In this document: one piece after another, positions 34,983 to 35,675 of the stretch | Layout: every line of letters begins with the position of its first letter | How positions within the stretch are numbered: the stretch's first letter is position 1 | Source: Deltaproteobacteria bacterium | GTDB taxonomy: Bacteria > Desulfobacterota > Dissulfuribacteria > Dissulfuribacterales > DYLC01 | NCBI GenBank assembly: GCA_028695735.1 | Contig: JAQVIJ010000006.1 | Span: 1-64,000 of the forward strand | Length of the DNA stretch: 64,000 nucleotides | Direction: 5' to 3' | The notes under the pieces: model-generated | What the model saw: the letters and a program-made list of their open reading frames with translations, nothing else | What the model was told of the DNA's origin: nothing | Databases searched by the model: none | Made by a program: the position numbers and the translations under genes

Positions 34983-35015
34983 TTGACCATTATTTCATTT
35001 TTAATTAAATCTCCT

Positions 35016-35130
35016 GGGGCGGCAGCGGTGAAGCATTTGTTCCATGCGTCGCATAACTGCCCTCCATGGCAGTATGCGCCGCCGGCGCCCTCGTGGCGCC
35101 TATTCCACAAACACTCCACCACTGCCGCCC
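35016..35130 (-). repeat. Foldable element, left copy (inverted)
   Basis: Read on the minus strand: outer stem arms 35117-35130 and 35017-35030 (13 of 14 pairs), then the conserved core GTGTTTGTGGAATAGGCGCC and ACGAGGGCGCCGGC, an inner hairpin, and the conserved GCATGGAACAAAT. The core is identical to the right copy, but outer and inner stems differ in sequence while staying paired. This may be a structured RNA or a mobile-element end. Confidence 0.75.
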
Positions 35131-35315
35131 TTTTCGTCCCTGCAGAACTCCATGTTCATAACGGGTTCCCTATCCATTCCTGATGTAATTCCACAGATAA
35201 CGGATTGACCTGCTGGAATAGTGAACCTACCCTTCTGATAATAAAAAACGCTGGTTGAACCGTCACTTCTGCCAATAAAAATCGTAGAATTGGCCTTTAT
35301 CCTCATGTTAACCAA
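35100..35315 (-). CDS. Possible small protein or gene remnant
   Basis: 71 codons, starting in the direct repeat GTTAACC and ending at the TAG inside the conserved core of the left element. The composition is protein-like (IFIGRSDGSTSVFYYQKG) and suggests beta structure. No homologue recognised and no ribosome-binding site seen. It may be the remnant of a gene carried with the element. Confidence 0.25.
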   Translation of the reverse strand: MVNMRIKANSTIFIGRSDGSTSVFYYQKGRFTIPAGQSVICGITSGMDREPVMNMEFCRDEKGGSGGVFVE

Positions 35316-35447
35316 AATTCAAAGTATGTGCTGGGTTAACATATCGTTTACGATTGGGTTTGGGTTTTCTTGAAGGGTGTTAACCAAAGTCCAAAGGGTC
35401 TATGTCTTTTTTAAGCGGCTTCTGAGGTAGGATGTGGAGGTGGGGAG

Positions 35448-35560
35448 GGGCGAGGGCAGTCGGTGTTTGTGGAATAGGCGCCACGAGGGCGCCGGCCCCA
35501 CATTACCGCCAAGGAGGGCGGTTATGTGGGGCATGGAACAAATACCGGCTGTCCTCGCCC
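35448..35560 (+). repeat. Foldable element, right copy
   Basis: Predicted pairing by eye: P1 35448-35463 with 35545-35560 (16 pairs, two wobbles), P2 GTTTGT with ACAAAT (35465-35470 / 35538-35543), P3 GGCGCC-ACGAG-GGCGCC (35477-35493), P4 35497-35510 with 35517-35530 (13 of 14 pairs). This makes a three-way junction. An intrinsic terminator lies 115 bases downstream on the same strand. Confidence 0.75.
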
Positions 35561-35675
35561 AGATATTGTCCTTTTTTATCAGCCTTTAAATAACGGGCGA
35601 TGTGCCGTGTATCACTTGCAGAGGTTGGTGTTTGCGAGGCTGTTCAAAGAATGAAATTTTCCCCATGCAAGATGC

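Follow-up and report, generated by a model that had tools for sequence, protein, structure and literature searches.

Branched hairpins in inverted pairs: a new palindromic, MITE-like repeat family apparently confined to one bacterial order

Downstream of an AICARFT/IMPCHase-like gene in a Deltaproteobacteria bacterium, two branched hairpins face each other. Are they a structured RNA kept by selection, or the ends of a mobile element? Both readings were offered by the initial annotation of the window, a 64,000-nucleotide stretch of contig JAQVIJ010000006.1 that belongs to a 2.22-Mb genome in nine contigs (G000, hereafter the window genome). The host is a sulfur-cycling bacterium. The hairpins, designated L and R, form a unit that lies 35 bases past the stop codon of the gene; their parts are listed in Table 1. 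Comparison of the two hairpins bore out the description given at the outset: facing copies of about 115 bases are separated by 317 bases, their core strings are identical, the outer stem differs between the copies and is self-complementary in each, and the compensatory changes (C-G to T-A, A-T to G-C and C-G to G-C) are all present. The inverted arms are complementary at 93% and 85% over 41+40 nt. Covariance model matches cover positions 35019-35127(-) for L (112 bits) and 35450-35559(+) for R (121.9 bits).

Table 1. Positions of the hairpins and their parts in the window
Feature	Positions	Strand	Description
L outer flank	34995..35016	.	ATTTTTAATTAAATCTCCTG-like, common to numerous further units; likely outer boundary of the repeat
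L hairpin (L class)	35017..35131	-	three-way junction: outer stem P1 plus hairpins P2 and P3
L-R spacer	35132..35448	.	identity between units about 82%, versus about 95% for the hairpins
R hairpin (R class)	35449..35562	+	same fold as the L hairpin
R 5' invariant junction half	35463..35480	+	GTGTTTGTGGAATAGGCG
R P2	35477..35493	+	GGCGCC-ACGAG-GGCGCC; stem almost invariant, loop hypervariable
R P3	35495..35532	+	hexaloop C[AAGGAG]G, which fits CANGGANG
R 3' junction half	35532..35543	+	CATGGAACAAAT: GGA facing GGA, then ACAAA of P1

The same three-way junction is predicted for both hairpins, with energies of -88.2 and -79.6 kcal/mol. Dinucleotide shuffles average about -45.5 and -46, which gives z-scores of -11.6 and -10.1, respectively, and none of 200 shuffles was as good. 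The fold opens with P1, continues through a symmetric GGA/GGA internal loop set between UUUGU/ACAAA and RU/AY pairs, and then carries P2 (GGCGCC-loop-GGCGCC) and P3. According to the column profile, GTGTTTGTGGAATAGGCG of R contains the UUUGU of P1 together with the GGA on one side of the internal loop. The opposite strands fold worse (-71.8 and -65.7), because G.U wobbles turn into A.C mismatches.

Only these two copies were known to the initial annotation. The window genome contains at least 101, which changes the interpretation: TTTGTGRAATAGGCGCC occurs at 101 places with at most one mismatch (98 of them exact), and this pattern count is a lower bound for the hairpin core. A BLAST search with R gave 86 matches in the same genome, about 40 of them nearly full length at 92-97% identity. 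L- and R-class hairpins nearly always occur as inverted pairs, L(-) and then R(+), either single or in tandem, and the spacers of the 38 units that were measured are 201-336 bases long. Median pairwise identity among these units is 95.4% for L, 94.5% for R and 81.9% for the spacer. L and R are 83% identical to each other, each class keeping its own sequence; gene conversion between L and R within a unit was rejected, since the two differ by 17% whether they come from the same unit or from different ones. Variation within the hairpins lies mostly in a few shared columns, and private mutations amount to only 0.2-0.4% per site; the hairpin copies are therefore young. The spacer does not appear to be coding, as reading frames differ between copies and none is consistent. 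The tandem spacing suggested an integron-like cassette array, which was also rejected, the spacers having no consistent ORF and being shorter than genes. One long interval between L and R (C8:29.6-30.9 kb, about 1.3 kb) was considered as an autonomous copy; it turned out to comprise a truncated unit and a solitary L, and its 164-aa ORF is unrelated.

Among the 38 units of the window genome, no offset gave a consistent target duplication (direct repeat), and the outer flanks are a mosaic of other repeats; the exact CCTGAATCCGTG terminal repeat is absent from this genome. Its intergenic regions as a whole combine several repeat families in a mosaic. Further palindromic repeats, GGGGATTGCTTCGCTTCGCTCGCAATGAC and GTAGGGGCGACCGGCCGGTCGCCCCTAC, lie in the right flanks of R (at L033, L034, L035, L040, L043 and others). 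At G000:C4:80566-81481 (L032 4567-5476), the repeats of a tandem array, each about 196 bp long, lack the 5' half of the R hairpin; the 3' half that they retain meets GGACAGA.CCATT-type sequence at a microhomology, ACATT.

A covariance-model search of the genome and its relatives, named at the outset as a check, yielded many copies in few carrier genomes of the order. The first model (R1) was run on 46 genomes of the order and on 297 genomes sampled evenly across the phylum. It returned at least 83 matches in the window genome, at least 83 in G008, 44 in G015 and a single match in G006; the 297-genome phylum sample gave no added matches. G008 and G015 represent another family of the same order, and their copies are divergent. 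A second model (R2), run on 38 genomes of the order, matched G006 with an E value of 3.8e-11, the G006 sequence being among those from which this model was built, and detected a relic (E 0.003) in G001, a member of the window genome's own family. The relic has the terminal repeat end CCTGAATCCGTG, as in the G008 elements. Apart from these five carriers, the genomes of the order gave no match with either model (46 genomes for R1, 38 for R2). When 84,980 named genomes were scanned with a DNA pattern, the sole match was Deltaproteobacteria bacterium UBA5754, whose group is placed in Dissulfuribacterales (Thermodesulfobacteriota/Desulfobacterota), the order to which the window genome also belongs. 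No viral contig matched the hairpin, and viral spread was set aside. The comparison with Rfam, another check named at the outset, came back empty: none of its described families matched the hairpin at the gathering score, and the best weak matches were chance-like.

In G008 and G015, the hairpin is the body of an element, mostly 174-175 bp long, that is bounded by CCTGAATCCGTGAG...CTCACGGATTCAGG. The 38 elements listed from these genomes have terminal inverted repeats (TIRs), CCTGAATCC...GGATTCAGG, at both ends; TIR half-sites number 332 in the 2 Mb of G008, versus 0 for a reversed-pattern control. Exact target duplications of 5-6 bp were found at 25 of the 38 elements. When flanks of different copies were paired as a null, 5 bp was reached in 5 of 2,000 draws and 6 bp never. 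Such duplications, present at many G008 sites, are the mark of cut-and-paste transposition with a transposase supplied in trans. These copies thus have the properties of MITEs: TIRs, target duplications and a short (about 174 bp) non-coding sequence in at least 83 copies in G008. The G008 hairpins are mostly intergenic, and the 33 that could be scored have no orientation preference relative to flanking genes. In one G008 subfamily the fold lacks both P2 and the junction. DDE_Tnp_1 was rejected as the mobilizer, as none of the five carrier genomes yielded a transposase of this type. In G008, a 1.7-kb interval between two TIRs was considered as an autonomous element; it carries ordinary genes. 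In three G008/G015 copies (L051, L061 and L064), the hairpin MITE lies within a second, longer inverted repeat, GTCAAAGTCA...TGACTTTGAC, which suggests nested or captured transposition.

We conclude that the feature is very probably one copy of a non-autonomous, palindromic, MITE-like mobile repeat with a branched-hairpin body (outer stem, GGA/GGA loop and two short hairpins), and that a parasitic mobile repeat is its likeliest identity, ahead of a structured-RNA gene. The proposal of a hairpin-ended mobile element has thus held up: over 100 copies lie scattered through the genome, their ends are paired around an interior that varies, and the related elements are unambiguous MITEs, complete with terminal repeats and target duplications of 5-6 bp. 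The unit of the window genome is an inverted pair of L and R that closes about 450-560 bp, has a poorly conserved interior, and is both dispersed and tandem; the paired hairpins are the probable termini of a small unit. L and R would be its two ends (cis sites) or the sole parts kept at each multiplication, which would account for ends that remain 95% identical while the interior drops to 82%. Because no consistent target duplication accompanies the L-R units of the window genome and flanks there are repeat mosaics, we infer the mode of spread from the relatives, and the L-R unit would be mobile by analogy with them. The pairing may be kept partly because mobility needs folded or palindromic DNA, and partly through mutual correction of the palindrome arms by template switching. 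Against the MITE-like reading stand the missing target duplications and exact terminal repeat of the window genome, the failure to find DDE_Tnp_1 in the five carriers, and the position of the examined Y1 (REP) transposase copy among a different repeat. So does a strand-specific wobble bias in the window genome, which a purely DNA-level palindrome does not predict.

Does the covariation call for an RNA? Across 24 divergent copies, in an alignment that was fitted to the structure so that the counts lean towards it, 96.2% of cells are paired, and both sides have changed in 28 of 43 pairs; none of 500 shuffles reached these values, and slid controls collapsed. An independent MAFFT alignment gave changes on both sides in 20 of 39 pairs. 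On the reported strand of the window-genome copies there are 251 G.U versus 17 A.C cells; R has two consensus wobble pairs and L has four, none of them with an A.C counterpart, and consensus A.C pairs number zero. Paired sites are more conserved than unpaired ones in this genome (divergence of 3-4% versus 10%). In G008/G015 they are not (6.9% versus 4.9%), and single-sided variants there are about equally G.U and A.C (16 versus 13 column-variants). With A.C as frequent as G.U, no orientation bias and a subfamily that lacks P2, selection at the RNA level is therefore not demonstrated. Of the initial annotation's argument from preserved pairing, the strong covariation is real, but the selected structured RNA, one of the two readings it suggested, does not follow from it. 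As judged from sequence, RNA-level selection on the fold is possible, and the wobble bias leaves room for an RNA role of the hairpin in the window genome.

A serious alternative source of the covariation is homogenization of palindromes by template switching. A switch between palindrome arms can make compensated pairs in one step, and the process is documented for RNA hairpins (PMC8794818). Palindromes are its preferred substrates, arms in G008 differ from one subfamily to another by runs of adjacent compensated changes, and the near-even division of single-sided variants in G008 points the same way. Taken to its end, this explanation makes the compensated stems a by-product of quasi-palindrome correction during replication, the fold being without function at any level and the repeat inert. 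In that form we regard it as unlikely, although it deserves consideration: it leaves unexplained both the invariant unpaired GGA, ANGGA and UUUGU blocks across three families and the excess of G.U in the window genome, where the consensus has no A.C pair.

The loops lead to another explanation, in which the fold would be a structured RNA that binds CsrA through its hexaloops (P2 and P3) and junction GGA motifs, serving either as CsrA sites carried on mRNAs or as a sponge for CsrA that is dispersed over the genome. P3 ends in a hexaloop closed by C-G, with the pattern C[ANGGAN]G. In 84 window-genome copies, A1, G3 and A5 are invariant, G4 is present in 80, and positions 2 and 6 vary; loops in the relatives (AUGGAC in G008, AUGGAC and AUGGAU in G006) all fit CANGGANG as well. 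Apical hexaloops of the type CANGGANG are high-affinity CsrA/RsmE sites (PMC4894983). The excess of G.U over A.C cells on the reported strand agrees with such a role, and every carrier genome has csrA; however, csrA is nearly universal in the order and equally present in relatives without the repeat, and its co-occurrence is uninformative. In addition, the P2 loop of about half of the window-genome copies is ACGAG, without GGA, a GAA variant commonly replaces GGA at all four sites, and the G008 hairpins have no orientation bias relative to genes. On balance, CsrA binding is improbable. Bolder, and highly improbable, is the idea of a transposable repeat as the vehicle by which a branched, CsrA-binding RNA spread through the genome, in which case some hundred C[ANGGAN]G hairpins would form a mobile sponge or place many genes under Csr control. 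Among all window-genome copies, the P2 loop alternatives ACGAG, AGGAG, ATGAAG, ACGGAG and ATGGAG have similar frequencies in L and R, and the GGA/GAA junction variants next to this loop are L- or R-specific. The shared alternatives may stem from loops that mutated repeatedly or from conversion over very short tracts.

Least probable of all is a REP/BIME-type element mobilized by a Y1 (RAYT) transposase: the inverted pairing and intergenic clustering of the hairpins resemble BIMEs, the window genome has two Y1_Tnp matches, and a different REP, GGGGCAGGCAC, flanks some L-R units, but the Y1 gene examined is flanked by that REP and not by L/R hairpins, both Y1 loci (L135 and L136) are without hairpin copies, G006 has the hairpin but no Y1_Tnp match, and the G008 copies, unlike REPs, have TIRs and target duplications. 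An origin from this system was rejected on the location of the Y1 genes away from the hairpins. At G000:C8, about 330.8-332.4 kb (L136 2303-3890), a Y1 (RAYT) transposase of about 200 aa lies amid copies of GGGGCAGGCACAGGGGCCTGCCCC. This REP-like repeat is distinct from the hairpins and also occurs directly after some of the R copies. At G000:C5, about 30.6-34.2 kb (L135 2088-5675), the Y1_Tnp domain is in frame within a 1195-aa open frame that, judged by eye, has a DNA-methylase-type look.

How does the MITE-like repeat compare with known systems? It shares with bacterial MITEs a short, non-coding, intergenic, high-copy and palindromic nature and, in G008, TIRs with short target duplications; it differs in a body made of a conserved three-way junction with a GGA/GGA loop and ANGGAN loops, and in a core that occurs in varied outer contexts. 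ERIC and Correia/NEMIS are likewise palindromic intergenic repeats that resemble this family. BIMEs (paired inverted REPs) also consist of two close inverted hairpins and are intergenic, clustered and tandem, whereas the hairpins described here are branched, are about 115 nt rather than about 35 nt long, and are unlinked to the RAYT gene examined. CsrB/CsrC/RsmY/RsmZ and TwoAYGGAY RNA have similar C-G-closed apical hexaloops with GGA; however, the hairpin is a dispersed repeat known from DNA, not a single gene, and scores below the Rfam gathering score for them. AAV-type T-shaped ITRs of single-stranded DNA replicons have a similar T-shaped fold and form an inverted pair around an interior, a resemblance of shape only; the units described here have no replicon genes, and their interiors are a few hundred bases.

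The hairpins thus belong to a new, previously undescribed high-copy repeat family that is apparently limited to one bacterial order. Its branched fold is retained, together with the unpaired motifs, even where the outer stem and the terminal repeats around it have been replaced by others. The family offers a clean case for telling covariation that comes from RNA selection apart from covariation that arises as palindromic DNA corrects itself, and it serves as a warning that covariation within repeats does not prove a functional RNA.
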